From positions 1 to 43,058 of IMG/VR virus record IMGVR_UViG_3300031999_003535: a DNA stretch of 43,058 nt; one strand, written 5' to 3'. The DNA is from a virus. Positions 1 to 32,117 of the stretch are shown in pieces. Each line of letters begins with the position of its first letter. The first letter of the stretch is position 1. The translations under genes and the position numbers were made by a program. The notes beneath the pieces were generated by a model. It was not told the origin of the DNA, did not search any database, and saw nothing but the letters and a program-made list of their open reading frames with translations.

Positions 1-1223
1 CCGGCTGCGGTCGGTGCGGTCTTCGCGAGCATCTGCACGAGCGCGGTGTGGACGAAGCTGGCCGCCATGCCGCCCATGACGAGCTTCTTGGTTTCCACGT
101 CCTTTACCACGTAGCCGGTGGCGACGATGCCCAGCGCCGCGGCCATCGCACTCGCGATGATGCCCTTGTACGGCTGGAGGGCTTCAAACCCAGAAACGGC
201 AGGGGTGGCCGCCGGGGTGGTCGGGGTGGCCGCTGCGGGAGCCGTGCCGATGATCTTGTCCACCACGAAGTCGCTGAGCACCTTGCTGATCGCCTTCTGG
301 GCGACAAACCCGGCGGTGATGAACGCGCCTGCCTTGAGCGCCCCCATCAGCGTTTCCTTCCACTGGTTCTTGCGGAAGGCGTTGCGACCATAGCGACGCC
401 CATTCGCGTTGAGCTTGAGGTGTCGCCTGTACGCGCGCTTGTTGCGACGCAGACTGGTGCGCTTGTTTGCCTTGGCCCGGCGCTTCGGAGCTGCCCGGCG
501 CTTGCGGTTGGGGCTGAGCTTGCGCTTGCGCCAGCCCTTGCGAGCCGCCGCGGCGCGCTTGGCGCTCTTGTTGCGACGCAGACTGGTGCGCTTGTTTGCC
601 TTGGCCCGGCGCTTCGGAGCTGCCCGGCGCTTGCGGTTGGGGCTGAGCTTGCGCCGACCCTTGGCCAAGTTGCGCAGGCTCGCTGCGCGCTGCTTTGCGG
701 TTTGACGGCGCTTCACGCGGCGCTTTCGATTCATGTTGAACATTGCTGCCAGTCTCCTTCGGCGGTTCGCCGCGTAAACTCCCGTGACGAGCTTGCGCGC
801 GCCCGGTTTCTCTCCGTATGCTGCCTCCCCAATCCGGTATCGAACACCCGGGGTTAGCTTGCGTCCCCACGCTGCGCGCGCGGCCTGGGCGGCTTTGATG
901 TTCTGCCTCGCTGCGCGGATCGCCTTTGCGCTGCGATGCCCAGTACCCGCCTTGCCCTTGTTCATGTAGTACATGCCCTGACCTTTCGCTTGCTGTACCC
1001 GTGCCGCGAACTGCGCACGCTCGGTTTCCGTTAGTTGCCTCGCACGCTTCACACGCGCGCTTTGTGAGAGCCCGCTCATGGCGGACCTCGCCGACTTGGC
1101 ACGGCCGTAGGCGCCGCGACCGTTGATCGCCGCAATCGCAGTGACGCCGGGGTTCGGCTTCGCGTAGCCGTACCCCTTCACCTGCTTCGGACTGATCTTG
1201 AATGCTTTGCCTATCGTGGCCAT
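1..1223 (-). CDS. Arg/Lys-rich repeat protein with membrane segments (partial, runs off left edge)
   Basis: At least 407 codons are open from ATG 1223 to the edge, so the C-terminus is missing. AGGAG lies 11 bases upstream of the start. Residues 1-160 are basic. Residues 155-290 are extremely Arg/Lys-rich and carry two copies of a 29-residue unit (RKLSPNRKRRAAPKRR...) 43 residues apart. Residues 292-400 hold three hydrophobic stretches (about 294-312, 353-373, 380-399). The basic part resembles protamine or histone-H1-like DNA-condensing proteins, so binding genomic DNA at a membrane is a reasonable inference, but I recognise no family. M161 (741-743) has AAGGAG upstream and could be an internal start. 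Last gene of the minus operon inside the window, with its own promoter at 1302-1331. Confidence 0.8.
   Translation of the reverse strand, partial: MATIGKAFKISPKQVKGYGYAKPNPGVTAIAAINGRGAYGRAKSARSAMSGLSQSARVKRARQLTETERAQFAARVQQAKGQGMYYMNKGKAGTGHRSAKAIRAARQNIKAAQAARAAWGRKLTPGVRYRIGEAAYGEKPGARKLVTGVYAANRRRRLAAMFNMNRKRRVKRRQTAKQRAASLRNLAKGRRKLSPNRKRRAAPKRRAKANKRTSLRRNKSAKRAAAARKGWRKRKLSPNRKRRAAPKRRAKANKRTSLRRNKRAYRRHLKLNANGRRYGRNAFRKNQWKETLMGALKAGAFITAGFVAQKAISKVLSDFVVDKIIGTAPAAATPTTPAATPAVSGFEALQPYKGIIASAMAAALGIVATGYVVKDVETKKLVMGGMAASFVHTALVQMLAKTAPTAA
438..654 (-). repeat. Two 88-bp direct repeats inside a gene
   Basis: Positions 438-525 and 567-654 are near-identical and offset by 129 bases (43 codons), so the reading frame is kept. 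They encode the duplicated basic unit of the protein at 1-1223. A recent in-frame duplication is the simplest explanation. Confidence 0.9.
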
Positions 1224-1301
1224 CTGCGGACGCACTCCTGCGGCTCTCGCCAGTGCATCCAGCGGCCCGACGGCTCCAACTGGTAGTTTGCGGTGACTCG
1301 G

Positions 1302-1331
1302 AGGCTACCGAGAGCCCTACTCGCAAGTCAA
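1302..1331 (-). promoter_or_regulatory. Predicted promoter for the basic repeat protein
   Basis: TTGACT (1331-1326), 18 bases, TAGCCT (1307-1302). This is the best match to the window's shared promoter form, but here the start codon is 78 bases downstream and has a Shine-Dalgarno site, so the transcript would have a leader. It lies in the 128-base gap between two genes. Confidence 0.55.
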
Positions 1332-1351
1332 GAAATCGGTCGCGGGATCGG

Positions 1352-1660
1352 TTAGGTCGTCTTTTTCCGCGTGAACCACCAGGCTCCGCCGATCAAAACG
1401 AGCGCGCCGACTCCGGCATACATGACCCATGTTCGGCCTTGCTTCTCGGCGAGCAGTGCGTCCCTCACAGCTTGCTCTGGCACGCCCGCGGCTAGCTGGG
1501 CTTTTGCCTTGTCCAAACACTTCTGGTACTCGGCGGAGCCGACTTTGCCCTGACCGACCACGGCGTTGCAGACACCGAACATCGGCATCAGGGTTGCGAG
1601 CGCCCCTTTCATCTTCGTCGTCATCCCCAGCCCGCTTCCGCTCATCGCTGCATACGTCAT
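1352..1660 (-). CDS. Small tail-anchored membrane protein
   Basis: 102 residues from ATG 1660, 7 bases after the previous stop. The N-terminal part has a Gly/Met-rich start (GSGLGM), a short hydrophobic stretch (20-30) and two cysteines that could pair. A single membrane segment (about 78-96) is followed only by TRKKTT. By the positive-inside rule the N-terminus would be outside and the tail inside. A longer reading with 32 extra N-terminal residues exists but would overlap the upstream gene. Family not recognised; it has the architecture repeated along this operon. Confidence 0.78.
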   Translation of the reverse strand: MTYAAMSGSGLGMTTKMKGALATLMPMFGVCNAVVGQGKVGSAEYQKCLDKAKAQLAAGVPEQAVRDALLAEKQGRTWVMYAGVGALVLIGGAWWFTRKKTT

Positions 1661-1667
1661 CTCGTGC

Positions 1668-2708
1668 TCACTTTCTTTTCTGATAGAGGACCAGTGCCGC
1701 AGCAGCGGCTCCCGCCAACACAATGAGTGCCGCGGCTTTTCCGCTCGCGCTCGCAAATGTGCCAGAGCTTGTGACGCTTACGGTCGTGTGCTGCTGTACC
1801 CGCGCCTTGATCGCTTCGGCTGCGATGGCGGCGCGGACTAGCATCTCGGCCGTCGCGAGTGTCTCGTAGAACTGAATCACGATGCCGTCGAGGGACTGTG
1901 CGTACTGGGTGCGCAGTACAGTCGTGCTTGGTACTTTCTGTAAACAGAACGCTTGCTGCACGAGCCCTTGCTGCATTGGTAACGCCGGGTTCAACTTCAT
2001 GCACGGAGCCCGCAACTCCGCCAACCGCCCGTTCACCCACGCATCGGCGGGCGCTGGCATGCCCATGCCGCCCTGCATGCGGGCCATCAAGTTGGGCGGC
2101 TGGATCGGATAGTAGTTTACGTGCTTGGGATCCAGCTCGAACGGCGCGATCCACTTTGTCTCGTGCAGCAAGCCGTTCGCGGCTAGCCGCAAGCGCATCG
2201 GGGTGTCTTTCTCGTATCCCGTGATGGTGATTTCTGTCTCCCCATCATTCTTGTTCCACGTAACAAACCGTTGCGAGTACGCCGGCCCGCCGCCCTGGCT
2301 TCCTTTGCGACTGGGAACCATCTGGTTGTAGAAATCGATCAGCTTCTTGGCGCTGGCCGCGAGGTCCGCGTTCATCTGCGTTTCGAGATCCATCATTTTC
2401 TCGCGCGCAGCGCCGTAGGTAGCGGACTCCCTCCGCCGTTGCAGCGCGGCCCGCTGTGCGCTGTCGTCGCCGAAGATGCTATTCCACACCTTGATTGCTT
2501 CGCCCACGACGCCTTTGGCAATCGGTCCGCACACACCGGGGGGCACTTTGTACGCGGCACAGTACCCGTCTGCTGCACACTCGGCTCCCGTCTTTACGCT
2601 TTGCTCGCGTCCCGCCTTGGTGCTCATGTCCGCGGATTTGAGCTTCTGGCCGCACTTTTCGAGCGTGTCCGCGCCCAGCGCCGTATGCGTAAGTGCGTGG
2701 TACGACAT
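1668..2708 (-). CDS. Large tail-anchored protein of the membrane operon
   Basis: 346 residues. The N-terminus (MSYHALTHTALGAD) is reminiscent of the MSYVxLG starts of two other operon proteins. Residues 19-60 hold several cysteines, 95-130 are likely helical, and 150-200 look beta-rich (QRFVTWNKNDGETEITITGYEKD). Met/Pro-rich loops follow, then a Thr/Ser/Ala stretch and a final membrane segment (about 324-342) with tail QKRK. It is the largest single-anchor protein here, so a major membrane-associated structural protein is possible. No family recognised. Confidence 0.8.
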   Translation of the reverse strand: MSYHALTHTALGADTLEKCGQKLKSADMSTKAGREQSVKTGAECAADGYCAAYKVPPGVCGPIAKGVVGEAIKVWNSIFGDDSAQRAALQRRRESATYGAAREKMMDLETQMNADLAASAKKLIDFYNQMVPSRKGSQGGGPAYSQRFVTWNKNDGETEITITGYEKDTPMRLRLAANGLLHETKWIAPFELDPKHVNYYPIQPPNLMARMQGGMGMPAPADAWVNGRLAELRAPCMKLNPALPMQQGLVQQAFCLQKVPSTTVLRTQYAQSLDGIVIQFYETLATAEMLVRAAIAAEAIKARVQQHTTVSVTSSGTFASASGKAAALIVLAGAAAAALVLYQKRK

Positions 2709-2712
2709 TCGC

Positions 2713-3450
2713 TCAGCCTACGATCCCGTCTTTTTCGATGTCCAGCACGGCGCCCGTGATGACGCAGTGCGCGCCGCTGTCGGTGTAGATGATCAGAAAA
2801 GTCTCCCCAGTCTCGGGATGCTTGGCGGCGCCCAGCGTCGCTCCTGCCACGTCGATTTGGTAGAGGCTCTCGTCGCCAAGTTGCTGTTTGTCGTCATCGC
2901 CGACAAACAGTCGCGCCTGAAAGCCCAGCACCTTGGCAAGCACTGCAAAGTGAGTCGGCATCGGGTCGTTCAGATTGACCTTTGGGCCGACGACGCCTAG
3001 TTCTACACGCGGCCGGTTGTACTCGCGCACGAACCCCGGCGTCACCAGAAGCTGTTGCTTGCCCTCGGCGACGTGTTTGTAGTCCTCGGCTTGCCCGTTG
3101 GTTTTCCACTTGTCCGACGAATACATGACCGCTTCGCACTGGCCAATGTGCTGCATGGTCCGAGGCCACTCCCAAGGCACCTGCTCCTTGTGCTCGGGCT
3201 CGCGATCCATAAACGTGCGCCGCACGTTCCGCGCTTGCGTCAGCTCGGAGGCATTCCGCGTGTAGCGGCGACAGCGGTTCGGCTCGGGCTCGCCGACCTC
3301 AACGATTTCGTAAGCCTGGGCGTACATGGGTACGGACATTTGGGCGTGCACCCACGCTTTCACTTTGGCGATAGCGTGGTCTTCGTCCTCGGCGAAGACG
3401 GTGCGTTCGCCTTCGTAGGTTCCAGCGAGGTAGCGGACGGTGTAGCGCAT
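2713..3450 (-). CDS. Soluble two-domain protein of unknown function
   Basis: 245 residues from ATG 3450, which overlaps the upstream stop by one base (TGATG); longer in-frame starts would run through the neighbouring gene. Residues 1-50 form a compact alpha/beta unit (MRYTVRYLAGTYEGERTVFAEDED). The C-terminal half (about 150-245) looks like a folded beta-rich domain with GAAKHPETGETFLIIYTDSG and ends EKDGIVG. No signal peptide or membrane segment, unlike most neighbours. Function unknown. Confidence 0.8.
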   Translation of the reverse strand: MRYTVRYLAGTYEGERTVFAEDEDHAIAKVKAWVHAQMSVPMYAQAYEIVEVGEPEPNRCRRYTRNASELTQARNVRRTFMDREPEHKEQVPWEWPRTMQHIGQCEAVMYSSDKWKTNGQAEDYKHVAEGKQQLLVTPGFVREYNRPRVELGVVGPKVNLNDPMPTHFAVLAKVLGFQARLFVGDDDKQQLGDESLYQIDVAGATLGAAKHPETGETFLIIYTDSGAHCVITGAVLDIEKDGIVG

Positions 3451-3926
3451 CACTGCTCCCAACCCAGTTCCGAGGGTGCCGGAGGCGCGCGCATCGCTTC
3501 GTTGCTCGCCGCTGGGCGCGGCACCGGGGGCAAAATGAAAAGCCTGGCCGAGTGCGCGTACGGCTTTGCGCTGGGTGAGAGCGCAACCGAATGCGGAGGC
3601 CGCGAGCTGGGCTCGGGCTTCGCGTCGGGCACCGCCAGCTCCTTGCTCGGCAGCTCCGTCGCGCCACGCGCGAGCAAGTATCCCTCGAAGTACCCGGCAA
3701 ACTTCACCTGAGAATCGCGGAGCTGTTTCACCTCGGCCTGGAGGTCTTTTACCTGCCCGGTGAGCGCCTCGTACGCCTTGAGCGCCTTGGGCTCGTCGAG
3801 CGCGAGCTGCTTGGCCGCCGCGGCCTCGTGCCACGACCGCACGCAACCGCCCACGGCCGTCGCTAAGGCTACGACGCCCGCGAGCGTCGCCAGCGTCTTA
3901 CCGACGCGCGTCTCGGGCATCCTCAT
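3450..3926 (-). CDS. N-terminally anchored coiled-coil protein, spanin-like in layout
   Basis: 158 residues from ATG 3926 (ATGA overlap). A hydrophobic N-terminal segment (8-27) ends at Cys28 in AVGGC, so it could be a signal anchor or a weak lipobox. Residues 45-75 are charged and heptad-like (QVKDLQAEVKQLRDSQVK). The C-terminal third is Pro/Ala-rich. An anchor plus periplasmic coiled coil is the layout of phage inner-membrane spanins, but there is no paired Rz1-like gene beside it, so this remains a description only. Confidence 0.75.
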   Translation of the reverse strand: MRMPETRVGKTLATLAGVVALATAVGGCVRSWHEAAAAKQLALDEPKALKAYEALTGQVKDLQAEVKQLRDSQVKFAGYFEGYLLARGATELPSKELAVPDAKPEPSSRPPHSVALSPSAKPYAHSARLFILPPVPRPAASNEAMRAPPAPSELGWEQ

Positions 3927-4249
3927 GGCTTCCACCGCTTCCCAATCCAAAACCCCGCCAGGGCGCCCACGACGAGCATGGCGAGCCCGGAAAAGCTGAA
4001 GCTGAACCCCACGCCGCTTCCCGAGAGGCCCTGCCGTGACAAGCGCATGATCGCGCCCTTCGCAAACGGCCCCGAGCCCACCTTGGTGATCGGGCCATCG
4101 GGAGCGCGTCCGGCGTCGGTGCTGGCGACCCCCAGGTTGCTCACCGGCACCAGTTGGGGGACCGGCATGTCATCGCCCAGGCCACGCCGCTCCGCTGTCG
4201 CGAAGTAGTCGTAGCCTCCGGTGTCTGGACGCCAGCGCGAATAGAACAC
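3923..4249 (-). CDS. Small tail-anchored membrane protein
   Basis: 108 residues from GTG 4249, one base after the preceding TGA. A soluble part without cysteines (1-80), rich in Gly/Ser near its end, is followed by a membrane segment (about 85-102) and the tail GKRWKP. Same topology as its operon neighbours; no family recognised. Confidence 0.75.
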   Translation of the reverse strand: MFYSRWRPDTGGYDYFATAERRGLGDDMPVPQLVPVSNLGVASTDAGRAPDGPITKVGSGPFAKGAIMRLSRQGLSGSGVGFSFSFSGLAMLVVGALAGFWIGKRWKP

Positions 4250-4250
4250 T

Positions 4251-5156
4251 TCACGCCTCCTGAGCTACGTGCCGCGCCTGCTTCATTTTGCCCACGATGG
4301 TCGGCAGGAAGTACACCGCGAGCCCAATCCCAGCGACCAAAGCGGCGTATTTTACGACGTCGTTCCACATTTTCTCGGGACCATTGGCCACGTCGCGGCA
4401 AATGTCCTGCTGCCACTGCGGCAAGTCGCTGCGCGCCATGCAGACGTCCATCATCTTGTTGTACGACCGCAAAGCGAGAATCGCGACGACACACAGTGCG
4501 AGGATCGCGACGACGCTGGCAACGACGACGACCGTGGTCGTCACAGATATCGGCTCGAAGCCCAAGCCTTGCTGGGATGCGAGCTTGTCCTGCTTTGCAA
4601 TCCACGCCTTCGTCATTGCGGACGCTCCCGTCACCAGCCCCTTCTGCATGAGGGGAGGGGGCTCGTCGGGATGCGGAACGAGCACGTCGAGCACGCCGCT
4701 CGATGCGAGCTTCGTAATGCCCTGAAACACTCCCAGGCGATACCGATAGTCGCTCTCTGCGCCGGCCGGCGTCCACTTGCCGAGCGCCTGTAGCGTTGCG
4801 CGCTGGCTCGGGGCGTGAAGGCCAATGCCTGCCGTCGCGGTGATGAATGCTCCGATTAGGAGATTGCGGGCGCTGACGGAGCTGAACGGCGGCGCGAGTG
4901 CTGCGGGTATTTTTGCCCAGTTGCCTTGCAGAGTCTGAAGCACCGCGTCGGCGCGATTGCTGATCTCGTTGCCAATGACCTCGACCGCTGTCTGCACAGC
5001 CGCGCCGTCGATGTCGTTCGGCTCGGGAAGGTTACTGATCACCGTCTCGGCAGCCTTTGCCCAGTTCACGAGGTAGTCGAGCCGCGTCTGCTCGTCGGTC
5101 CCCGGAGGGAGCAATTCCAGCTTGAAGTAGCCAGCAATCTGTTCGAGGCTGGTCAT
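4251..5156 (-). CDS. Multi-pass membrane protein with PPPLMQK motif
   Basis: 301 residues. The N-terminal helical region (1-90) is followed by hydrophobic segments at about 98-113, 207-229 and 270-288. Residues 164-172 (DEPPPLMQK) match a segment of the peptidoglycan-binding-like protein encoded at 5615-6142, suggesting a common partner or a common origin of that piece. Three cysteines lie at 222, 239 and 253. The start is set by ATG after the upstream TAA. Family unknown. Confidence 0.8.
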   Translation of the reverse strand: MTSLEQIAGYFKLELLPPGTDEQTRLDYLVNWAKAAETVISNLPEPNDIDGAAVQTAVEVIGNEISNRADAVLQTLQGNWAKIPAALAPPFSSVSARNLLIGAFITATAGIGLHAPSQRATLQALGKWTPAGAESDYRYRLGVFQGITKLASSGVLDVLVPHPDEPPPLMQKGLVTGASAMTKAWIAKQDKLASQQGLGFEPISVTTTVVVVASVVAILALCVVAILALRSYNKMMDVCMARSDLPQWQQDICRDVANGPEKMWNDVVKYAALVAGIGLAVYFLPTIVGKMKQARHVAQEA

Positions 5157-5159
5157 GCG

Positions 5160-5618
5160 TTAGCGCCTTTGACGGCGGCTTGATTTGCGCTTGTGCCGGG
5201 CGTTGGCAGCCAGTTCCGCGCTGCGTTTCGTCGCCGGCTCGGAGCGCGTCGCGCTCTTTTTGTAAGCCTGATAGGCGAAGTAGAGCCCTGCGGCACCGAG
5301 CGCAATGTAGACCCACTGCGGCACCTGATTGAGCGCGGAGCCCAAGTCGCGACGTAGCGTGCCCATCGGGCGTCCCGATTGCAGGTACGCGCGCATGGCC
5401 GGCGGGGCCTGCTCTGGGGTTGGAACGTGCGCTGGCCCGAGCAACAGCGGCGCTGTGCCGAGCCCGCGCAGTGAGCCAGACTGGTAGTAGCCATCGTCGT
5501 ATGGCGCCCTGAAATTCGACACGTCCTCGTAGCTGCGGTGCACCGCACCGATACCCTGCAATGCAACCGGATCGAACGGCGCTCGGAAATTCGACGTGTC
5601 CGCGTAGGTCCGCTTCAC
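5160..5618 (-). CDS. Tail-anchored protein with duplicated SNFRAP motif
   Basis: 152 residues from GTG 5618 (GTGA overlap). SNFRAP occurs twice near the N-terminus (about 9 and 34), each next to a Gly-rich GIG or GLG turn, so this part looks like a short internal duplication. A membrane segment (about 102-117) is followed by 35 strongly basic residues ending RRQRR. The basic tail would face the cytoplasm or the virion interior and could contact nucleic acid (inference). Confidence 0.78.
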   Translation of the reverse strand: MKRTYADTSNFRAPFDPVALQGIGAVHRSYEDVSNFRAPYDDGYYQSGSLRGLGTAPLLLGPAHVPTPEQAPPAMRAYLQSGRPMGTLRRDLGSALNQVPQWVYIALGAAGLYFAYQAYKKSATRSEPATKRSAELAANARHKRKSSRRQRR

Positions 5619-6142
5619 TTGATCCAGCCCTTCTTCTTTGCGATGACCAAGCCGACCAACGCCAGTCCTCCGACGGCCGCTCCAATCAGAAGCGCGTTCG
5701 ACTTACTCTTGGGCGCGTACATGGCCGCCGCGGCCGAGGGCGCCGTCGCAGCGGCAGCCGGCGCGATGTAGCTGCCGCCGCCGCCTGCCGGCGGATAGGG
5801 GCTGTAGCTCTTGCAGACACTACCTCCGGGGTCCATGTCGGCGTACTTCGCCGCTCCGCACGTGCCGGGCCCGAGCACGCCGTCAGCCTGGATAGCCGGC
5901 TTGCCCTTGGCCTTGAGTGCCGCGTTGAGCGCGCTCTGGAATGCTGCCGTGTCTGCGCTCTTGACTCCCCACGGCATCGCGGTGCCGCCACCGCCACCAC
6001 CGCTACTCGGTGCTGGCGTATAGCTTGTGACTCCACCCGCCTTCTGCATGAGCGGGGGCGGGTCGCTCGACGGCAACATCCAATCGAACAGATCCGTCGT
6101 CATTGTGCCGATGGCGGACGGGCCGCCGAGAATGCCGTTCAT
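5615..6142 (-). CDS. Tail-anchored protein with a peptidoglycan-binding-like domain (paralogue 1)
   Basis: 175 residues from ATG 6142 (ATGA overlap). The N-terminus GILGGPSAIG is shared with the upstream neighbour. PPPLMQK lies at 28-34. Residues 66-100 resemble a PG_binding_1 repeat (AFQSALNAAL...ADGVLGPGTCGAA), with the typical DGxxGPxT turn. After a Gly/Ala/Pro linker a membrane segment (149-167) precedes AKKKGWIK. The two cysteines (C95 and one near 111) could pair. PG_binding_1 domains bind the cell wall; a membrane-anchored wall-binding protein is the inferred role. Confidence 0.82.
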   Translation of the reverse strand: MNGILGGPSAIGTMTTDLFDWMLPSSDPPPLMQKAGGVTSYTPAPSSGGGGGGTAMPWGVKSADTAAFQSALNAALKAKGKPAIQADGVLGPGTCGAAKYADMDPGGSVCKSYSPYPPAGGGGSYIAPAAAATAPSAAAAMYAPKSKSNALLIGAAVGGLALVGLVIAKKKGWIK

Positions 6143-6801
6143 TTGAGCCAGCCCTTTTTCTTGGCGACGTAGTAGCCGAGCACTCCGACCCCTGCGACAG
6201 CTCCTCCGATCATCATCATGTTCGCGGTGCTCATCTTGGGTTTGGCTGGAGGCAGGTATGCCATCGGCGGCGCGGGCTTCACCGCGGGCTTCACGGCGTA
6301 CGTCGGCTTCGGCGGAGCCGTCTCTGTCAGCGTCTTGGTAACTGGGCCGATTGCACAGTCCACCAGGAACCCCGAGCCCACCTTGATCGTCGAGCCACAG
6401 ACGCCTGGCACTCCAATCGACGGGTCGGTCTTGACGGCCCAGGCAGAGGCTCCACAAGTCGTCGGCCCGAGTTGCCCATCCACGTCGATGGGGCAATAGC
6501 CGTACTTCGCGAGCGCGGCGTTGATCTTCTGCTGAAGCGTTGAGACTTGCCCGGTGGTCATCACCGAGGTCATTGCCGACTTGGCCAGCGAAATGCACTT
6601 GCTCTGCGCGGAGTCGATGCACGCGGCGAGCTGACTCTGCGGCCAGCCGCCCTCAAACGCCTGCGAGCCGCAGCTCTGAATCGCCGCGCCAGCACACGCC
6701 TGGTACGTCGTGTTGTTCCAGGTCTGGCCCTTCGGATCGATTATCCCGAGCGCCGAGTCGGTGCCGATGGCGGACACGCCGCCGAGAATTCCGAGTGACA
6801 T
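6139..6801 (-). CDS. Tail-anchored protein with a peptidoglycan-binding-like domain (paralogue 2)
   Basis: 220 residues from ATG 6801 (TAATG overlap). The N-terminus GILGGVSAIG and the C-terminus VAKKKGWLK match the downstream neighbour, so the two are paralogues. Residues 86-121 are PG_binding_1-like (LQQKINAALAKYG...DVDGQLGPTTCGA). Eight cysteines (36, 44, 61, 69, 103, 116, 135, 149) precede the anchor and suggest a disulfide-bonded external domain. A Pro/Lys linker leads to a membrane segment at 194-212. There is no signal peptide, so insertion would depend on the C-terminal segment. Confidence 0.84.
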   Translation of the reverse strand: MSLGILGGVSAIGTDSALGIIDPKGQTWNNTTYQACAGAAIQSCGSQAFEGGWPQSQLAACIDSAQSKCISLAKSAMTSVMTTGQVSTLQQKINAALAKYGYCPIDVDGQLGPTTCGASAWAVKTDPSIGVPGVCGSTIKVGSGFLVDCAIGPVTKTLTETAPPKPTYAVKPAVKPAPPMAYLPPAKPKMSTANMMMIGGAVAGVGVLGYYVAKKKGWLK

Positions 6802-7367
6802 TAGCGCTTCCTCCCAACCATGCGACGCGAGCTTGCGTTCCACACGCGGTTCTCTGCCATCTTCGCCTTCGGCGCTCCGCCGCCCTGCCGGCTCTTGTAG
6901 ACGGCGTAGCCAATGCCGCCGGCTACCGCGAGGCCCAGAACCGCGAGCCCGAGCTTGGTGTTCGTGCTCATGCCGGCCTGCACCGGAACCGGCGCACCCG
7001 GTTGCGGCGGCGTCGCCAAGCCTGGCGGCGTCGGCAGGTTGAGCAGCGGGAACGAAAACTGCGGCTGAGCACCGGGCGGGGGAGCGGACGGAATGACGAC
7101 CGGCGGCGGCGTGTACTGTCCACCACTCGGCGTCGCCATCGTCGGGGGGTACGTCAGGTTGCAATTAGCGAAACAGGCAGTGAGCTGGAAGACGTCCGGG
7201 TGCCCGCTCGGCACGCCGTACTTCGCGTCGCAGCCCGCCGTGCACGCCTGGAGCTTCGCCGCCGTGTCGGCCGCCATCGAGAGCTGGCCGAGGCCGCTGA
7301 TGGCGTTGTTGAAGATGCCGCCGCCTTCGCCGCCGACGCGGAACATCCCGTCTTCTGTGAAGTCCAT
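6801..7367 (-). CDS. Tail-anchored protein with two Cys-x3-Cys pairs and the KMAxNR motif
   Basis: 188 residues from ATG 7367, with AGGAGA upstream overlapping the previous stop. Cysteines 42/46 and 65/69 form a twin CxxxC pattern (CTAGC, CFANC), typical of a disulfide-stapled helical hairpin. A Pro-rich stalk (73-130) leads to QAGMSTNTK (131-138), a membrane segment (138-157), then KMAENR (169-174) and a basic end. The pre-anchor and post-anchor motifs recur in the protein at 10773-11495. No family recognised. Confidence 0.8.
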   Translation of the reverse strand: MDFTEDGMFRVGGEGGGIFNNAISGLGQLSMAADTAAKLQACTAGCDAKYGVPSGHPDVFQLTACFANCNLTYPPTMATPSGGQYTPPPVVIPSAPPPGAQPQFSFPLLNLPTPPGLATPPQPGAPVPVQAGMSTNTKLGLAVLGLAVAGGIGYAVYKSRQGGGAPKAKMAENRVWNASSRRMVGRKR

Positions 7368-7371
7368 GGGG

Positions 7372-7614
7372 TTACTTTCTCCTGCGCCGCAGCCGCTGCG
7401 CAACTTTCCTGCGTGATCTGTTCTTCCTCAGTCGCTTCCGGTCGTAGTGGGTAGCCCAGCTCGCCTCTGACCGCCGCTTCTCCGCCCGCTCCAGGTACAG
7501 CATCGCCGCCGCGGTGCCCAACACGCCCGCCACCATGATCGCGATGATCACCGGGTCGGTCTTGGGCGCGTCTTGCCCGACCGGCCGGAGCTGGAGAGCG
7601 GGCGAGTAGCTCAC
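7372..7614 (-). CDS. Small membrane protein with strongly basic tail
   Basis: 80 residues from GTG 7614, which overlaps the upstream TGA (GTGA). One membrane segment (22-41) is followed by 39 residues with about 16 Arg/Lys, ending RLRRRRK. The longer in-frame reading upstream overlaps the neighbouring gene and is compositionally a shadow. A membrane-tethered nucleic-acid-binding tail is the obvious inference. Confidence 0.75.
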   Translation of the reverse strand: MSYSPALQLRPVGQDAPKTDPVIIAIMVAGVLGTAAAMLYLERAEKRRSEASWATHYDRKRLRKNRSRRKVAQRLRRRRK

Positions 7615-8081
7615 CGCTTGCGGCCTCTCTTGAGCTTGCGTCGAGCGCGGTTCTTTTGATGCGCCTCTGGCTTGCCCAAGCCTTGCACGAGCATCACGGG
7701 GATCGCGATGGGCCAGAACATGCTGCCGAACAGCGCCCAGCCGATGGCCCAGCCCACTGAGTCGTCTCGCCTGTAGCCGTGATAGGCGCCGAGTATCATT
7801 CCGGCGAGTCCGCCGACGGCCTGCACCATCGCCAACGGGCTCGCGTCTTGTCCGAGGCCGTTCGTCGGTTTTGCTGCCCATGGGTAACGCGAGTAGGCGT
7901 CCGGGGTGAAGTCATCAGGCTTGAAGACGCTTTGCGGTGACGGCGCGTAGGGAAACTCGAAGACCGGCCGCGTCCAGATGCCACCGTGGTAGCGCGTCGG
8001 GTACGGATGAACGTGCGCAACGTACGGCGTCGGCACGCCAAGCTGGCCGCCACGTGATTTGATTCCAGGGGGTAGTGCCAT
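7611..8081 (-). CDS. Two-pass membrane protein with basic C-terminus
   Basis: 156 residues. The N-terminal 70 residues are rich in Tyr, His, Pro and Phe and lack cysteine. GLGQ at 75-78 recurs in several operon proteins. Hydrophobic segments lie at 84-100 and 109-132, the second Trp-rich, followed by a Lys/Arg tail (KNRARRKLKRGRKR). Family unknown. Confidence 0.78.
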   Translation of the reverse strand: MALPPGIKSRGGQLGVPTPYVAHVHPYPTRYHGGIWTRPVFEFPYAPSPQSVFKPDDFTPDAYSRYPWAAKPTNGLGQDASPLAMVQAVGGLAGMILGAYHGYRRDDSVGWAIGWALFGSMFWPIAIPVMLVQGLGKPEAHQKNRARRKLKRGRKR

Positions 8082-8088
8082 TGGTTTC

Positions 8089-8532
8089 TTACCTCACCAC
8101 TTCCATCCTACTGAGGCGCATGCGGTGTGCTGCGCGGTCGCTATAGCTTGCCTCCGTCACGAGGTGCTGCGCTCCGTCGGCCGTCCACACCTTGATGACG
8201 CCAGGCCCAACGCTTTGGGGCGCTGTTACTAAATCCGGGCTTCGCGCGCGGCGTAGCCTGTCTTCTTCTTGCCGCTCCTGCCAGTGGGCGTACCTGGACG
8301 GGTCCGGTGTGCGGCCGGTGGCCAACAGGTACTCGGGCCGATAATCGCTCAGCGCCATGAGCGCATCCCGTTGGCTTGCGTCGGGAAAGACGTCCGGCAG
8401 CTCAAGCACCAGGATAGCGACGTCAACGTCCTCCTCGTACCAGAACTTGTTTCCCCACTTCATGCCCTTTGCAACGGCCGCGTCGGACAACCTTTCGGCG
8501 GCGGCCTTTGGAGTAACACTCGCGCGGCTCAC
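8089..8532 (-). CDS. Soluble protein of unknown function
   Basis: 147 residues from GTG 8532 (GTGA overlap with the upstream stop). The first 75 residues look like a small alpha/beta domain (TPKAAAERLSDAAVAKGMKWGNKFWYEEDVD). The C-terminal part contains VIKVWTADGAQHLVTE. No cysteines, signal or membrane segment. Unrecognised; it sits with the next gene as a soluble pair interrupting the membrane series. Confidence 0.75.
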   Translation of the reverse strand: MSRASVTPKAAAERLSDAAVAKGMKWGNKFWYEEDVDVAILVLELPDVFPDASQRDALMALSDYRPEYLLATGRTPDPSRYAHWQERQEEDRLRRARSPDLVTAPQSVGPGVIKVWTADGAQHLVTEASYSDRAAHRMRLSRMEVVR

Positions 8533-9365
8533 GACGCCACCTCGCACTGGCATTCGCCGCCGGGCTCGCAACCCGCTTCCTCGCACAGCTCACACAGCGC
8601 CGGCTCGTCGGGGTCGTTGCTGGCGATTGTCTCGTCGAAACATCCACCGCATTCGCAGTGGACGTAGCCGCCGCTGTTGGCTTTCATTTGCATCGCCTCT
8701 GCGGACGGCGGTAGCCCCAGCCACTCGGCCTCCTCGGAGTCCACCGGGAAGGCAACGTGGAGTCCCGAGCTGTAGCGCGGAGCTTGGAACGAACGAAAGC
8801 GCGCGGGGTCAGTGACGCTGATTAGACGGTAAAGTTTTCCCTTAGCGTACTTGCCTCCAGGGACGTCGCTCACCACCGTCGTCACGTAGTCGTAGTCGAA
8901 CGCCTCGGGCGCACTTGTCCACCATAGCTCGCCCAGCTCCGGTTCCGCTCGCCCAACGGTGTACTCGGACGCGAGGAACACATCATCGCGGAGCTTGCGC
9001 GACGTGAAGTCCTCATGGCCGCCATCGTACTCGTACCGATAGGCGTCGCGGCCTACCCGTGTAAACAACTGTCCGTCCACCCGCATAGACTGGCCAATGT
9101 CCAGCAGCCGCAGACGCTGCACGACTTCGCTGCCGCTGACACTCTGGGCGTTGGGCTCGTAGGCTTCTGGATGCTCTTTGCGCAGAATGGCTTCGTGTTC
9201 GGCGTCGGTGCTGGCGCCTCGTGTCAGCTCCAAGGCGTACTCCCTGGCCTCATCTTTGCGGTTGAACACGCGCAGCACTTGGTCGTGCCACATAACAAAC
9301 CACGCTTGGTTTGGACGCGAGTACACCAAACTCAGAGCGCCGGGGTATTTCTCCGTTTTTGCCAT
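8529..9365 (-). CDS. Protein with Cys-rich zinc-binding-like C-terminus
   Basis: 278 residues. Residues 1-60 contain an aromatic beta-hairpin-like unit (WFVMWHDQVLRVFNRKDEA). The middle is mixed alpha/beta. The last 45 residues hold HCECGGC, CELC, AGC and ECQC, enough ligands for one or two zinc sites. There is no anchor. Binding of nucleic acid or protein through the zinc region is possible but unproven. Confidence 0.78.
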   Translation of the reverse strand: MAKTEKYPGALSLVYSRPNQAWFVMWHDQVLRVFNRKDEAREYALELTRGASTDAEHEAILRKEHPEAYEPNAQSVSGSEVVQRLRLLDIGQSMRVDGQLFTRVGRDAYRYEYDGGHEDFTSRKLRDDVFLASEYTVGRAEPELGELWWTSAPEAFDYDYVTTVVSDVPGGKYAKGKLYRLISVTDPARFRSFQAPRYSSGLHVAFPVDSEEAEWLGLPPSAEAMQMKANSGGYVHCECGGCFDETIASNDPDEPALCELCEEAGCEPGGECQCEVAS

Positions 9366-9368
9366 CGT

Positions 9369-9635
9369 TCACCGCTCCTGCCCAAACGCCGCGTCGTGTG
9401 CGGCCTCAATTTCCCGAAAGAGCCCGGAGTCCGCCGCGGTCTTCATGGCCCCCGCAAGGTTGGCGATCATGCTGAACTGCGCGGACGACAGACCGCTGGC
9501 CTTCGCCACCGCGGACACCGCTTGGCCCAGCTCGGCGAGCGCGCGGTGCTGCATTCGCATCGCCGGGTCGCCTGGAAGCGCCGCTTGCGGCAATTCTCCG
9601 CCACGCGGGTTTGCGGTGTGTCCGTAACGTCTCAT
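9369..9635 (-). CDS. Small helical protein of unknown function
   Basis: 88 residues from ATG 9635 (ATGA overlap with the upstream stop). Predominantly alpha-helical (ALAELGQAVSAVAKASGLSS) with a short polar N-terminus. No membrane segment or cysteine. The longer upstream in-frame reading is a shadow of the neighbouring gene. Confidence 0.7.
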   Translation of the reverse strand: MRRYGHTANPRGGELPQAALPGDPAMRMQHRALAELGQAVSAVAKASGLSSAQFSMIANLAGAMKTAADSGLFREIEAAHDAAFGQER

Positions 9636-10096
9636 TTGTTTGACAGAGCTATTCCTGCCTCGATGCCGAGCCCGAGCGTGCCGAGCAGAATGCTCGCTGC
9701 CACTCCGCCCCATGCGTACTTGCTCTCGCGGCCACGTGGTGCAATCGCCTTGCCCACGTAGTACCCAGACACGCCGCGCACGAGCAGCCCGACTGCCACC
9801 ACGCCGGCCACGATGGCAAGGCTCATCTTGACGGAGGGTTCCTTGGCGGCCTCGGTTACCGCCTCGGTGACTTGGCCGATGCCGCTGAGCAACGGCGACA
9901 TAGCCGTGACCTTGCTGAACGTCGAGCGAGGTCGCTGGTACGCCGGGATGCCGTAGGCAGGCATCATCGTCTGTCCGAGCCCGCTTACCGACTCGGAGAA
10001 ATACTCTCCGATGCCAGCGCTGGGCCAGTGCTGCAACGTCACGGGCTCGCGGATTTCTTGGCCGTTCATGTAGAGGGGAAAGCCGAGCTGGCTCAT
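9632..10096 (-). CDS. Two-pass membrane protein with GLGQ motif
   Basis: 154 residues from ATG 10096 (ATGA overlap). A soluble N-terminal half contains SGLGQ (38-42) and SGIGQ (71-75), a motif seen repeatedly in this operon. Hydrophobic segments at 91-115 and 128-148 are separated by a basic loop (APRGRESKY), so both ends would lie on the same side. No cysteines. Family unknown. Confidence 0.77.
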   Translation of the reverse strand: MSQLGFPLYMNGQEIREPVTLQHWPSAGIGEYFSESVSGLGQTMMPAYGIPAYQRPRSTFSKVTAMSPLLSGIGQVTEAVTEAAKEPSVKMSLAIVAGVVAVGLLVRGVSGYYVGKAIAPRGRESKYAWGGVAASILLGTLGLGIEAGIALSNK

Positions 10097-10773
10097 GTCT
10101 TCTTCTTCTTTCCGGCAAACACCTGATAGAGCGCGCCGATCCCGAGTCCGATGGCTCCGGTGAGCGCGAGCACCTGCCACACCGGCATGCCGGTTGCGGG
10201 CGCGGCCTGGCCGATGGCCTGCGGATTCACGCGCACGTTGACGATTGATTGGTCGGGCATGTTGCGCGCTCGCGAAGCTCCGATGACCGGCTGTGACGGC
10301 GCGTACATGCCGCGTTCAAGGAATGCAATCTGCGCAGCGCTGTCCATGCTGACCGACCCGCCGTTGACGTAGACAACCGGACGCCCGGTCGTCGAGTCGA
10401 TCACTTCGCTCTTGGCGTACATGCGCTCGCGAGCGAGGTAGCCGGGAATGTCGAAGCGCGCAGCGAGCACGCCAGCGTCCGGGTAAATGTTTGGGAGCGT
10501 GCCCGGCGGATCGAAGATGCCGTCGTTCTGCACGTCATCCATCTCGGCCATCACCGCCAGTTCGTTCGCGGCCCAGCCGTGCTCGACGTTCTCGTCCTGC
10601 ACCTCATCCTCGGTGCCAGCGAGTCGGCGCCCGTGCGCCGCGTCAATCTTGCTCTGGTAGTGCGGAGCCGTGCTCGACGTGTAGGTCAGATCGCTGGCCC
10701 GGTTGACGTTGCTCCACATCGAGGGCGGCTTGCCCGTGAACGGCTGGGTGGGATAGCTCGGATACTTGGGCAT
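10093..10773 (-). CDS. Tail-anchored protein with long soluble domain
   Basis: 226 residues. A Pro/Tyr-rich start (MPKYPSYPTQPF) is followed by an acidic helical region (50-85) and a mixed region with RPVVYVNGGSVSMDS. The anchor (about 199-219) is followed by GKKKKT. Cysteine-free, unlike several operon neighbours. The N-terminal overlap is TAATG. No family recognised. Confidence 0.78.
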   Translation of the reverse strand: MPKYPSYPTQPFTGKPPSMWSNVNRASDLTYTSSTAPHYQSKIDAAHGRRLAGTEDEVQDENVEHGWAANELAVMAEMDDVQNDGIFDPPGTLPNIYPDAGVLAARFDIPGYLARERMYAKSEVIDSTTGRPVVYVNGGSVSMDSAAQIAFLERGMYAPSQPVIGASRARNMPDQSIVNVRVNPQAIGQAAPATGMPVWQVLALTGAIGLGIGALYQVFAGKKKKT

Positions 10774-11495
10774 TACTCTGATTCCTTGTAGTTGATCCCA
10801 TCGTAGGCGCGCGCGAGTGCTACTTGTCGTTCCGCGTCGTGCTTGGCTTCCGCCAGGGTACGACCCGTCATCGCAAGATCCTGCTGGCCGTGCGTATAGC
10901 CGCGCACACTATATGTGCCGTCACCGTCGTCCCACAATTTCAGCATGGACTTCGGTGGGACGCCTCGGGTCGTCCACTTTTTGAGAACACGTGGTTCCGC
11001 GTTCCGCCTCATGCGCTTTCGGTTCTGCGCCATCTTCGCCGGCTTGCGCTTGAGCGCCCAGACCACCGCGACGCCGACTACAAGCGCTCCCGCCGCCCAG
11101 AGCAGCTTCGTGTCGCGGCTCATGCCGGCCTGCGTCGCGACGAGCACCCCTCCACCTTGGGTCGCGGCGGCTTGCCGTTGCGCCTCGATCTGCGCGATGG
11201 CCTTTGCAATGTTCCTTGTGAGCGCCAGTTTAGCCTTGGCCTTTGCGTCAGCAACCGCGACGGCGTTAGCCATATTGTTTGCAAGCCGAACCCGCGCGGC
11301 TTCGGCGTCCGAGATGCAGCCCGAAGAGCCATCGGCATGCTGCGCCACCTGATAGCCCGGTCCGCACGTGGTCGTGGCCGTGGCGTTGGTCGCCACGTTG
11401 ACCGTCTTGACCGGGATGCCGGTGGAAGACGTCTTGATGCCACCAGAGGTGGATGCCTCCAGAGAGAAACCGACTCCAAGCGGGACGTAGCTCAT
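10773..11495 (-). CDS. Single-pass protein with coiled coil, QAGMS-TM-KMAxNR cassette and inner domain
   Basis: 240 residues from ATG 11495 (ATGA overlap). N-terminal MSYVPLG matches the upstream neighbour's MSYVSLG. Cysteines 44 and 60 flank a short loop, and 64-112 is a likely Ala-rich coiled coil. QAGMSRDTK (122-130) leads into the membrane segment (131-149), then KMAQNR (154-159). Residues 165-240 form an additional, probably folded domain (LWDDGDGTYSVRGYTHGQQD) on the inner side. The cassette recurs at 6801-7367. Confidence 0.82.
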   Translation of the reverse strand: MSYVPLGVGFSLEASTSGGIKTSSTGIPVKTVNVATNATATTTCGPGYQVAQHADGSSGCISDAEAARVRLANNMANAVAVADAKAKAKLALTRNIAKAIAQIEAQRQAAATQGGGVLVATQAGMSRDTKLLWAAGALVVGVAVVWALKRKPAKMAQNRKRMRRNAEPRVLKKWTTRGVPPKSMLKLWDDGDGTYSVRGYTHGQQDLAMTGRTLAEAKHDAERQVALARAYDGINYKESE

Positions 11496-12184
11496 TCTGC
11501 CGCCTCCCACCGCACTTGGGTGAAGGCGTCGCCACAGCTACCGATCAGGCGTCCGTCCTTCGTGTGTCCGGTCAGCTTGACGGACTCTCCGCACACCGGG
11601 CACAGGTCTGATGCCGGCGGGAGCGTGGGGCGGCGCCGCGCGTTTTTTCTTTGGCGTCGCCGGTTCGGCGCCATCTTCACTGGCGCCGGCTTCTTCATCT
11701 TCTTGTAGACCAGATAGCCGCCGCCGAGCGCGACTAGCGCGAGCAGCCCGACGACTGCGACGTTCATCTTTTTCTCAGGCTCGGGCGGCGGCTCCATCAC
11801 CTCGGGCGGCACGTACGTCGGCGTCACCTGGAGCCCCGGCTTGAATGCTGCGACCACCCGCGGCGATATGGTACTAATCGCTGGCGCTGGCGTCGGCATC
11901 CTGGGAGCGACGGTTGCCGTGTAGACCATGACCGGCGGCGGCGGCGGCGGCGGGCGCATCGGAAAGAGTGCTGCCGTCGGGGTGGGGCAGAGCGGCATCT
12001 GTGCCACCTTGCATGCGTCGATGCCATTCCAGCGCGTGTTGGTCCCGTAGGTAAAGCCCAGCGCGGAGCCAAGCCCCTTCACGTCTGGGATGCGACAGTC
12101 CAGATCCGCTTTTGCTTTCTCGGCAGCGGTGATGCACGACGTGCGCGCCACCATCGTCGTCTGCCCCAGTGATACATAGCTCAT
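11492..12184 (-). CDS. Single-pass protein with Pro-rich stalk and inner zinc ribbon
   Basis: 230 residues. N-terminus MSYVSLG; cysteines 17, 30, 58 and 66 form a candidate disulfide domain, followed by a run of prolines (78-84) and a Pro/Thr stalk to 138. The membrane segment (140-160) is followed by KMAPNR (170-175), an Arg-rich stretch, and CPVCGE with a third Cys at 217, suggesting a small zinc knuckle on the inner side. Several features are shared with the next gene in the operon. Family unknown. Confidence 0.82.
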   Translation of the reverse strand: MSYVSLGQTTMVARTSCITAAEKAKADLDCRIPDVKGLGSALGFTYGTNTRWNGIDACKVAQMPLCPTPTAALFPMRPPPPPPPVMVYTATVAPRMPTPAPAISTISPRVVAAFKPGLQVTPTYVPPEVMEPPPEPEKKMNVAVVGLLALVALGGGYLVYKKMKKPAPVKMAPNRRRQRKNARRRPTLPPASDLCPVCGESVKLTGHTKDGRLIGSCGDAFTQVRWEAAE

Positions 12185-12714
12185 CAGTCGGTTCTCCAGA
12201 TTTTGTGAGTCGTCACCCTGCGCAGCATCTTGGCTTCGTCGGTCCCCGCCACTGGATCACAAATGATCCACTGGTTCGACTTGGGCTCTTTCACTCGCGT
12301 GAACACGTGCGAGTACGCACCCGGTCGGCCGAAGCCCACGATGACCAGCTCGGCGTCGCGCCCGCACTGGCGAGCCATGGTGGCGATCATCTGCGCCATC
12401 TCGTCGCAGTCGCACTGGGACTGGCCCTGCGCCATGATCTCGTCGGCAATGCGCTCAGGGTCTTTGACCCACTCTGTCGTGAGCGGGTCGTTAAGGTAGC
12501 GACACCTCTCGGTGACGAAATTTCGGATGGCTAGGATCTCGCCCAGGTAGTCCTTTGGCTGCACTCCGGCGACCACCTTTTCCGTCAGCGAGCGGACCTT
12601 GACGGAGCGCTCGCCGCGGGGTCCGCGAATGTGGGCCAGCATCGTCTCTATGGTCGTCGCCGGACCACGAAACGGCGCAAGCGTGTGCGGAGGGGTAGCG
12701 GAGAGCGGATTCAA
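12184..12714 (-). CDS. Transglutaminase-fold cysteine enzyme
   Basis: Transglutaminase-like core: QCDCDE (C103 the likely nucleophile, aligning with the usual GDCDD), YSHVF (H136) and ICDPV (D153), in the order Cys-His-Asp. The upstream segment (GVQPKDYLGEILAIRNFV...RYLNDPLTTEWV) matches the helical lead-in of phage transglutaminase-like proteins. Phage members may process or crosslink proteins or act on peptide bonds; the substrate here is unknown. The start is uncertain: no ATG precedes the domain, so TTG 12714 (176 residues) is preferred; the reading frame is open further upstream. Confidence 0.8.
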   Translation of the reverse strand: MNPLSATPPHTLAPFRGPATTIETMLAHIRGPRGERSVKVRSLTEKVVAGVQPKDYLGEILAIRNFVTERCRYLNDPLTTEWVKDPERIADEIMAQGQSQCDCDEMAQMIATMARQCGRDAELVIVGFGRPGAYSHVFTRVKEPKSNQWIICDPVAGTDEAKMLRRVTTHKIWRTD

Positions 12715-12781
12715 CGTACCCGGAAGCCTACTCGCCGCCCTTCGCGGCCCGCAACTTTCCGGTCGCCAGCTCCGCGGCAGC

Positions 12782-13246
12782 CTATTTGCGCCGAAACGGA
12801 AAGCGGGCAATCGCCTGCTTCGGGCTCGCTCCGTTCAGCACGGCCTCGGCGCGCTTCATCACGGTGATCGCCGCCTTGCTGGGCGGCACCTCGTGCCAAC
12901 CTCCCGGCGGCTTGGGATCGCTCGTGATCCATGACTGGTAGCTGCCCAGTTCATGTGGCACCGGAGCGGCAAACTGCTCGGCCGTCACATCGAGCACTTC
13001 GCCGGTCGGCCCTTCCACCCACCAGTGCGGACCAAACTCCGGCGCCACGCTCTTTTTGAGACTGACGGATCGGTAGCCTTTCGCCTTGCCTCCCAGCAGG
13101 TGATAGAGCGCCTCGCTGGCGACGTAGCAGTGCCCGAGAAACTTTCGCTCGCTCAGCTCGGCCGCGCGACGGTACGCCGGCTTGAGCAGCTCCGCGGTGA
13201 GCACGGCCCGCACCGCCACGGCTATCGTGCGCTCGTGCCGCGTCAT
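12782..13246 (-). CDS. Small Cys/His/Asp protein, possible papain-fold hydrolase
   Basis: 154 residues from ATG 13246 (ATGA overlap). GHCYVASEALYHLLGG (C40), GPHWWVEG (H74) and EVLDVTAEQF (D86) give a Cys-His-Asp order and spacing compatible with a small papain-like or NlpC/P60-like catalytic core. The same signature occurs in uncharacterised phage proteins as far as I recall. Activity is not established. Its neighbour has the same catalytic order, so two cysteine enzymes sit side by side. Confidence 0.75.
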   Translation of the reverse strand: MTRHERTIAVAVRAVLTAELLKPAYRRAAELSERKFLGHCYVASEALYHLLGGKAKGYRSVSLKKSVAPEFGPHWWVEGPTGEVLDVTAEQFAAPVPHELGSYQSWITSDPKPPGGWHEVPPSKAAITVMKRAEAVLNGASPKQAIARFPFRRK

Positions 13247-13482: not shown

Positions 13483-13757
13483 CACGCTACCGTTCGTGCG
13501 TGGCACCAGGCCGGGCACTCGTCATTGTGTACCCCTGGCTCGTCGGGCTGGCATTCGCAAGGCCGCGGCGGAAGCGACGGCTCCGGTATCGACGAGCCCG
13601 CGTGCCCGCGGCTCAGGCCAAACACCATGCCGCTCAGCACGTGCCGTGCCCAGCGCACTTGATCGGAGCTGGAGACAACGGTTGTCCCGACGCGCACAAA
13701 CACGCGCCGCTGTGACTTGTTCTCGGCTTCCGATCCCCACCACTCGACCGGGCTCAT
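13482..13757 (-). CDS. Small protein with Cys-rich C-terminus
   Basis: 91 residues from ATG 13757 (ATGA overlap). A beta-like N-terminal half (RRVFVRVGTTVVSSSD) is followed by a Pro/Cys-rich end (RPCECQ...ECPAWCHA), four cysteines with nearby His. A zinc site or disulfides are possible. Unrecognised. Confidence 0.68.
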   Translation of the reverse strand: MSPVEWWGSEAENKSQRRVFVRVGTTVVSSSDQVRWARHVLSGMVFGLSRGHAGSSIPEPSLPPRPCECQPDEPGVHNDECPAWCHARTVA

Positions 13758-18515: not shown

Positions 18516-18728
18516 GTTGCCGTGCCGGGCGACCGTCAGTCGCCAGCGCCACGGGTGACCTTTTCCGTGGTCCCGAAGCAAGTCATCGCGCTCACGCAGA
18601 GCGTGAGCTTTGGTGTCCCAGGCAAGCCAGACGTATGGGAGGTTTGTTTGCCGGTCTAGGATGACCCAGCCGTCGGCAACCGTCTTTTTGCCGGAGCGCG
18701 CGCCCGCTACTTGGAATCGTAGCTGCAC
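18489..18728 (-). CDS. Small protein of unknown function
   Basis: 79 residues from GTG 18728, overlapping the previous gene by 22 bases. Compact, with a beta-rich core (DGWVILDRQTNLPYVWLAW) and a basic C-terminus (HPWRWRLTVARHGNLR). No cysteine, signal or membrane segment. No alternative start avoids the overlap. Confidence 0.62.
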   Translation of the reverse strand: MQLRFQVAGARSGKKTVADGWVILDRQTNLPYVWLAWDTKAHALRERDDLLRDHGKGHPWRWRLTVARHGNLRNVPKRP

Positions 18729-19756: not shown

Positions 19757-19758
19757 GG

Positions 19759-24832: not shown

Positions 24833-24975
24833 GTGCATCTGAACCTCCTACGGTTCTTCGTCCGTCCCGTTCCCGCCAGCGCCCCTGGACTTCCCTCTGG
24901 GGGCGTTGGTCTTTTGTACGCCAGGCAGAAAGGAGCCGCAAGAGCCGCGTGGACAAAGCCTGACCGGGTTCGCCC

Positions 24976-25003
24976 TTGACAGCCGCGACGGCTCTGATAG
25001 CAC
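24976..25003 (+). promoter_or_regulatory. Predicted leaderless promoter of the plus-strand early genes
   Basis: TTGACA (24976-24981), 16 bases, TAGCAC (24998-25003), 7 bases to ATG 25011. The spacer contains the palindrome GCCGCGACGGC. Confidence 0.48.
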
Positions 25004-25010
25004 TGGCAGC

Positions 25011-31395: not shown

Positions 31396-31401
31396 GTTGT
31401 C

Positions 31402-32091: not shown

Positions 32092-32117
32092 ACCAAGGGA
32101 AAGAAGGGAAGGAACGG

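Follow-up and report, generated by a model that had tools for sequence, protein, structure and literature searches.

The DNA analysed here, called the window, is the whole of IMG/VR virus record IMGVR_UViG_3300031999_003535 (G000), 43,058 nucleotides (nt) long. Its left end holds a row of minus-strand genes, most of which encode membrane proteins, and many of these are tail-anchored: they have a single membrane segment, close to the C-terminus. The subject of this text is this operon, the virus family in which it is found, and the kind of virus particle it may belong to.

Genes of the operon

Genes were re-called by codon-position G+C and hydropathy, which gave 20 minus-strand genes between positions 3 and 12184. 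The following features lie in this stretch (G2, G3 and so on are related contigs, introduced below; aa, amino acids).

3-1187, minus: partial gene running off the window; highly basic product, rich in lysine and arginine (K/R), with a membrane segment near the C-terminus
1352-1660, minus: tail-anchored, 102 aa, SGLG motif, two cysteines
1668-2708, minus: tail-anchored, 346 aa, anchor at residues 323-341, six cysteines ahead of it
2713-3435, minus: soluble conserved protein within the operon; orthologues in G2, G3, G5, G8 and G12
3450-3923, minus: probable lipoprotein and spanin-like candidate, N-terminal segment with VGGC
3923-4249, minus: tail-anchored, 108 aa, anchor at residues 84-102; orthologue in G5
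4251-5156, minus: two-segment membrane protein, conserved in G3
5160-5618, minus: tail-anchored, segment weak by Kyte-Doolittle, very basic tail; orthologues are anchored
5615-6142, minus: tail-anchored, with a peptidoglycan-binding-like region (named by inspection)
6139-6804, minus: tail-anchored, with a peptidoglycan-binding-like region (also named by inspection), eight cysteines
6801-7367, minus: tail-anchored, SGLGQ, four cysteines
7372-7605, minus: single-pass, 77 aa, basic tail of 40 residues
7611-8081, minus: membrane protein, NGLGQ motif, conserved family-wide
9632-10096, minus: two membrane segments, motifs AGIGEYF and SGLGQ; conserved in G2
10093-10773, minus: tail-anchored, 226 aa, conservation among the highest in the operon (37-61% between relatives), with the anchor kept in every orthologue read
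10773-11495, minus: single-pass, C-terminal domain of 91 residues
11492-12184, minus: single-pass, C-terminal domain bearing CxxC

In the last two proteins a domain of 70-91 residues follows the membrane segment. Membrane segments are found in 16 of the 20 genes. About 11 of the proteins have one segment only, at most 45 residues from the C-terminus, followed by a short basic tail. This confirms an earlier note on this DNA, which had described an operon of tail-anchored membrane proteins.

Shuffled proteins pass as membrane proteins far less often. Among the 19 genes between 1352 and 12184, 13 reach a Kyte-Doolittle threshold of 1.6, whereas 300 shuffles that keep the composition give 3.0 on average and 8 at most. 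The same measure finds no tail-anchored protein among 75 from a stretch of phage T4.

Behind the anchor, the tail-anchored proteins of the window have tails with a net positive charge. The same type of operon is present in relatives, and in the operon regions of six of them this holds for 64 of 66 tail-anchored proteins. By the positive-inside rule, such tails would suggest that the C-terminus lies in the cytoplasm, but basic ends can also occur in known bacterial tail-anchored proteins whose bulk is cytoplasmic.

The earlier note had also claimed that signal peptides are lacking and that cysteines ahead of the anchor come in even numbers. The first holds for the operon apart from the 3450-3923 protein, whose N-terminal segment ends in VGGC. 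The second is true of the window, where all seven proteins with cysteines before the anchor have an even count, but is not established family-wide (15 even and 10 odd in anchored proteins, 264 and 377 in soluble ones). As proof of disulfides on the outside, cysteine parity is rejected; the family-wide counts are only suggestive.

The tail-anchored proteins also have a short peptide in common. Outside the membrane segment, G[LMIVF]G occurs 133 times in 152 tail-anchored proteins of seven genomes, where 47 are expected; the 816 soluble proteins, with 241 against 233 expected, have no such enrichment. The longer form G-x-G-x-[YF]-[FY] is found 9 times in tail-anchored proteins, against 0.1 expected. 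For the window operon, 15 were counted and 4.6 expected, and none of 300 shuffles reached that number. Our guess is that the motif is a shared docking or processing site; papain-like proteases are encoded at 19013-19768 and in G3.

The virus family and its genomes

The window is a fragment, since a second contig, G001, extends it. This contig overlaps window positions 31391-43058 at 99.95% and adds 26 kilobases (kb) to the right. The resulting 69-kb sequence is named V. A MoxR-type ATPase encoded in the extension led to two 125-kb contigs, G2 and G3, and V, G2 and G3 have a collinear gene set that includes the window operon.

Along G3, V first covers the part between 46 and 0.9 kb, in descending order, and then the part from 122.6 kb down to 68 kb (V 32378-35041 matches G3 956-3550; V 35078-35755 matches G3 122653-123330). 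Both ends of G3 are thus neighbours in V, which means that G3, at 125 kb, is essentially complete and that its map is circular or circularly permuted. The G3 stretch from 46 to 68 kb is absent from V. It begins with three genes, here called A, B and C, directly after the gene for the basic protein.

Searches with A and then B gave more than 30 contigs; many measure 111-182 kb and one 298 kb. One contig from a bacterial metagenome-assembled genome (MAG) was found as well. In the related IMG/VR contigs an operon of the same type lies next to the A-B-C block. A 122.7-kb contig of a Pseudomonadota MAG, L049 (CAUJHX010000182.1), is a family member; its binning may be wrong, so the host does not follow from it.

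One protein of G3, 421 aa long, is homologous to a virion structural protein known from tailed marine phages (cyanophages and HMO-2011). Together with the endolysin-type genes of G3, this favours the identity of the element as a virus. G3 also has three tRNA genes and a tmRNA-like match (L021:4505-5667), whereas the window has no tRNA genes.

Neither the operon protein 1668-2708 nor the coiled-coil protein described below has a match in the viral contigs searched. A, B, the coiled-coil protein and a further protein, E, have none in INPHARED. The literature searched held no description of this family. The lineage would seem to be a previously undescribed family of very large tailless bacterial viruses.

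Capsid candidates

Protein A, with 80% identity between G2 and G3, has 250 aa; B has 316 aa and C 291 aa. The three genes sit together in nearly all family loci examined. AlphaFold2 models of A and B were built on alignments of 24 sequences. The model of A is a beta-sandwich, with a predicted local distance difference test score (pLDDT) of 64 and a predicted template modelling score (pTM) of 0.64. That of B has a long N-terminal helix, a coiled coil, followed by a beta-sandwich (pLDDT 67, pTM 0.54).

In Foldseek the best matches are for the most part to viral jelly-roll proteins. Those of A are to proteins of circovirus, Paramecium bursaria chlorella virus 1 (PBCV-1) and infectious bursal disease virus (IBDV), and those of B to the PBCV-1 major capsid protein, vaccinia D13 and a chain of SH1, all of them weak. 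Influenza hemagglutinin heads and jelly-roll domains of enzymes are also among the best matches. We read these results as a jelly-roll-type fold of A and B, which is not proven, and A, B and C may form the shell. Profiles of A and B gave no meaningful match among Protein Data Bank (PDB) sequences, and A has no match in PLSDB. Profile comparisons of A, B, C and E with one another were negative, which rejects the idea that they are sequence paralogues.

The earlier guess of a double-jelly-roll capsid with a packaging ATPase did not hold up: single-barrel-like proteins fit better, no canonical packaging ATPase was found, and P3 and P9 of PRD1 gave no phmmer match.

Two distant relatives, one of them a 298-kb contig, have gene A interrupted just behind RERVHQP, and the insert codes for a LAGLIDADG-like protein (L108:7233-8754 and L106:8246-9703). 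In L108 it matches a group I intron weakly (E 0.0055, under the Rfam gathering score).

The basic protein, cut off in the window at 3-1187, has about 400-860 aa in family members. The copy in V has 103 lysines and arginines against 10 aspartates and glutamates. In most relatives its gene is the large one just upstream of A, with a gap of 127-923 nt in 6 of 8 loci. We propose that it is a membrane-tethered DNA-binding protein.

Searches for tailed-phage and packaging genes

The terminase search took in 27 virus records, of which one is effectively closed. The large terminase model phrog_2 found its target in 11 of 14 control genomes. It found none in 15 virus contigs, nor in 12 further ones once two weak matches had been rejected; these are read as DEAD-box helicases. 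Four more models had positive controls and no match in the family: terminase PF03237 (0 of 22), portal PF04860 (0 of 16), HK97 capsid PF05065 (0 of 16) and FtsK PF01580 (0 of 16). When the nearly whole proteome of G3 was compared with Pfam and PHROGs, no such hallmarks were among the families listed (the best 25 per scan). A tailed-phage module had been named in the earlier note as evidence that would count against it; in the 26-kb extension and the large family contigs no terminase, portal or HK97 capsid gene was found.

The P-loop proteins in V and G3 are DnaB, a DnaC-like protein and MoxR. The packaging ATPases of P23-77, SH1 and PRD1, used as queries, gave no match in the family. Either the family truly differs in this respect, or its ATPase escaped detection.

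Comparison with known viruses

Of the known viruses, Salisaeta icosahedral phage 1 (SSIP-1) comes closest. It is tailless, with an internal membrane, a circular double-stranded DNA genome, a size of 100 nm, T=49 and two capsid protein types (PMC4958249, PMC6260650, PMC6356626). The likeness begins with two genes of the window.

12184-12810, minus: transglutaminase-like protein, found in 6 of 6 relatives compared; homologue of SSIP-1 gp34
13754-16180, minus: coiled-coil protein, 808 aa, found in 6 of 6 relatives; syntenic weak match to SSIP-1 gp33

SSIP-1 gp34 is annotated as a structural protein and has a transglutaminase domain and a C-terminal anchor. It matches the family protein with an hhalign probability of 97.7 (E 2e-12) and phmmer E-values down to 9e-11. 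The match of gp33 to the coiled-coil protein is weak (hhalign 57.7%, E 1e-4), in the same gene order. In INPHARED, a tblastn search with gp34 finds only SSIP-1 itself and two weak matches, so gp34 is not a common phage component. In both SSIP-1 and the family, this pair of genes is followed by tail-anchored proteins. SSIP-1 has several of these, including an anchored lytic transglycosylase. The extension of V encodes an anchored lytic transglycosylase too (see PRD1 below), an analogy at the level of domains.

There are also differences. The SSIP-1 genome has 43.8 kb, against about 110-182 kb and one 298-kb contig in the family. The family transglutaminase protein lacks the C-terminal anchor of gp34, and the gp40 ATPase has no clear counterpart in the family. 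No large K/R-rich protein is detectably matched; the C-terminal part of the basic protein gives only a hint of gp44 (probability 4.9, E 0.008). The peptide motif is not significantly enriched in SSIP-1 (8 against 5.5 expected; 59 of 300 shuffles).

Thermus phage P23-77 (Matshushitaviridae) and SH1/HHIV-2 (Sphaerolipoviridae) are vertical single beta-barrel viruses (Helvetiavirae) with adjacent capsid genes; the capsid candidates A and B, with their beta-sandwich models, are encoded side by side. P23-77 has small membrane proteins, 5 of them tail-anchored by the measure used here, and an SH1 chain is among the weak Foldseek matches of B. These viruses differ in having genomes of 17-31 kb and a canonical packaging ATPase, which was not found in the family.

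PRD1 (Tectiviridae) likewise has an internal membrane and many membrane proteins, among them the transglycosylase P7, which is C-terminally anchored. P7 matches a lytic transglycosylase encoded in the extension of V (L005:10027-10695; 5e-7), which has an SLT domain and a C-terminal anchor. PRD1 differs in its linear 15-kb genome, its double-jelly-roll P3, its P9 ATPase and its membrane proteins, which are mostly short with N-terminal segments.

With the Caudoviricetes the family has modular genes in common (endolysin, helicase, MazG, fibre-like proteins), but terminase, portal and HK97 capsid were not found in the family contigs searched.

Interpretation

The operon probably encodes virion membrane proteins of a giant, SSIP-1-like lineage of tailless phages, and the particle most likely carries an internal lipid membrane. 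The earlier note had offered a virion with a lipid layer, or else extensive remodelling of host membranes. That proposal is supported by the shared homologue of an SSIP-1 structural protein, by the three conserved proteins next to the operon, two of them modelled as beta-sandwiches, and by the failure to find a tailed-phage module.

The proteins might work as follows. The C-terminal anchors would insert them into the host inner membrane. They would gather where the shell of A, B and C assembles, possibly through the shared G-L/M/I-G peptide, and be taken up into the particle along with a piece of membrane, to which the K/R-rich membrane-bound protein would tie the genome. At entry, anchored cell-wall enzymes and binding proteins may open the cell wall, as P7 does in PRD1; the lytic transglycosylase of the extension and the peptidoglycan-binding-like proteins of the operon would make up this set. 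Docking by the motif and DNA binding by the K/R-rich protein are conjectural here.

The full picture is more tentative, and we consider it about as apt to fail as to stand, or slightly more so. It is that of a giant lineage with genomes 3-7 times those of any known bacterial virus of that architecture, a shell of A, B and C, and 15-25 tail-anchored proteins recruited by a GLG-type peptide. The genome would be held by the K/R-rich membrane-bound protein and loaded without a recognisable terminase or A32-type ATPase.

Several points weigh against a membrane-containing, SSIP-1-like particle. A, B and C have no sequence match to SSIP-1 gp45 and gp46 or to the capsid proteins of P23-77, SH1 and PRD1. 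For SSIP-1 this comparison used hhalign and phmmer with single sequences, as no SSIP-1 relatives were found from which to build a profile. None of the Foldseek matches reaches significance (best E 0.0067), and the models are of moderate confidence (pLDDT 64-67). The A-B-C block of this virus lies outside the window and its extension, and its presence is deduced from gene order. The gp34 link runs through the transglutaminase domain, a widespread fold; of the two genes that tie the family to SSIP-1, one matches strongly and the other weakly. No canonical packaging ATPase was found. The location of the proteins in the virion, and the lipid itself, are deduced here from genes.

The last point also serves the main rival explanation, in which the virus is tailless and the proteins act solely in the membrane of the infected cell, as an assembly platform or in remodelling, phage exclusion or lysis, and are absent from particles. 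A few operon members resemble lysis or lipoprotein genes (3450-3923), and many are poorly conserved in sequence between relatives. On the other side, the operon adjoins the capsid candidates, the homologue of an SSIP-1 structural protein stands at its start, and PRD1 has a parallel to the anchored transglycosylase in its virion protein P7. We regard this explanation as unlikely.

Less likely still is a tailed phage with head and tail genes that have diverged too far or are missing from the assemblies. Endolysin, fibre-like and phage-structural homologues do occur and the contigs are labelled linear, yet fibre-type genes are modular and can be common to different kinds of virus. The tailed-phage reading is rejected on the terminase search of 27 records and the portal and HK97 searches, in which the models were silent and the controls positive. 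Finally, a large plasmid or mobile element without a virion, its anchored proteins forming a surface or conjugation apparatus, is highly improbable, since the ParB-like protein, integrase and helicase of G3 stand against the lack of a PLSDB match for A, the absence of conjugation families among the Pfam and PHROG matches listed, and the presence of endolysin, fibre-type proteins and the conserved A-B-C block.

Among the known bacterial viruses with a jelly-roll shell and an inner membrane that the literature consulted lists, no genome exceeds about 44 kb (PMC6260650); for double-jelly-roll Preplasmiviricota, sizes under 50 kbp are given (PMC11071308). If a giant SSIP-1-like lineage is indeed what was found, genomes of about 125 kb and a 298-kb contig would mean that eukaryotes are not the only hosts of giant viruses with a membrane. 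SSIP-1, so far an orphan, would gain its first relatives. The packaging of large genomes without a recognised motor, and the sorting of dozens of membrane proteins into one virion, would become testable. The A-B-C genes and the transglutaminase protein can serve as markers for more members in metagenomes, perhaps misfiled as tailed phages.

Other genes of the window and its extension

19013-19768, minus: papain-like (C1) cysteine protease, with a C1 protease also in G3; a possible maturation protease
24906-25778, plus: lone opposite-strand tail-anchored protein; its short motif DPSSxLDxEL..AEAAAG recurs in the C-terminal part of the basic protein
35782-36204, plus: membrane protein whose gene immediately precedes the one at 36201; conserved in G3, G5, G8 and G12
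36201-37058, plus: protein E, 285 aa, possibly beta-rich as judged from sequence, conserved in four relatives; candidate for a further virion protein
40276-41076, plus: endolysin-like, with a peptidoglycan-binding domain

The 24906-25778 protein and the C-terminal part of the G3 basic protein have a 29-residue stretch in common, at 65%. The gene at 18707-19003 (minus) has a small product that contains 10 cysteines, probably carries a lipoprotein signal and has 55% identity to its G3 counterpart. It resembles surface proteins of Myxococcota, possibly a hint at the host.

Two related lipase or alpha-beta-hydrolase-like proteins, each with a C-terminal membrane segment, are encoded at window 29727-30827 (plus) and L005:4961-5767. 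At L005:5914-8869 the MoxR-type AAA ATPase, which could be an assembly chaperone, adjoins a protein with VWA and metallopeptidase domains, and the pair is kept in G2, G3, G12 and G13. The VWA/metallopeptidase gene of G2 (118508-121033, minus; L015-L016) has an intein-like insertion, judged by eye; its product has 841 aa, against 414-465 aa in relatives.

The extension also encodes a glycine-rich protein of 1572 aa with collagen-like repeats, followed by more fibre-like proteins (L004:8276-12994). A GHKL/HSP90-like ATPase-domain protein of 854 aa is partly encoded in the window, from 42943 to the right end, and is complete at L004:354-2918. It is unusual for a phage and is conserved in G2, G3 and G12.

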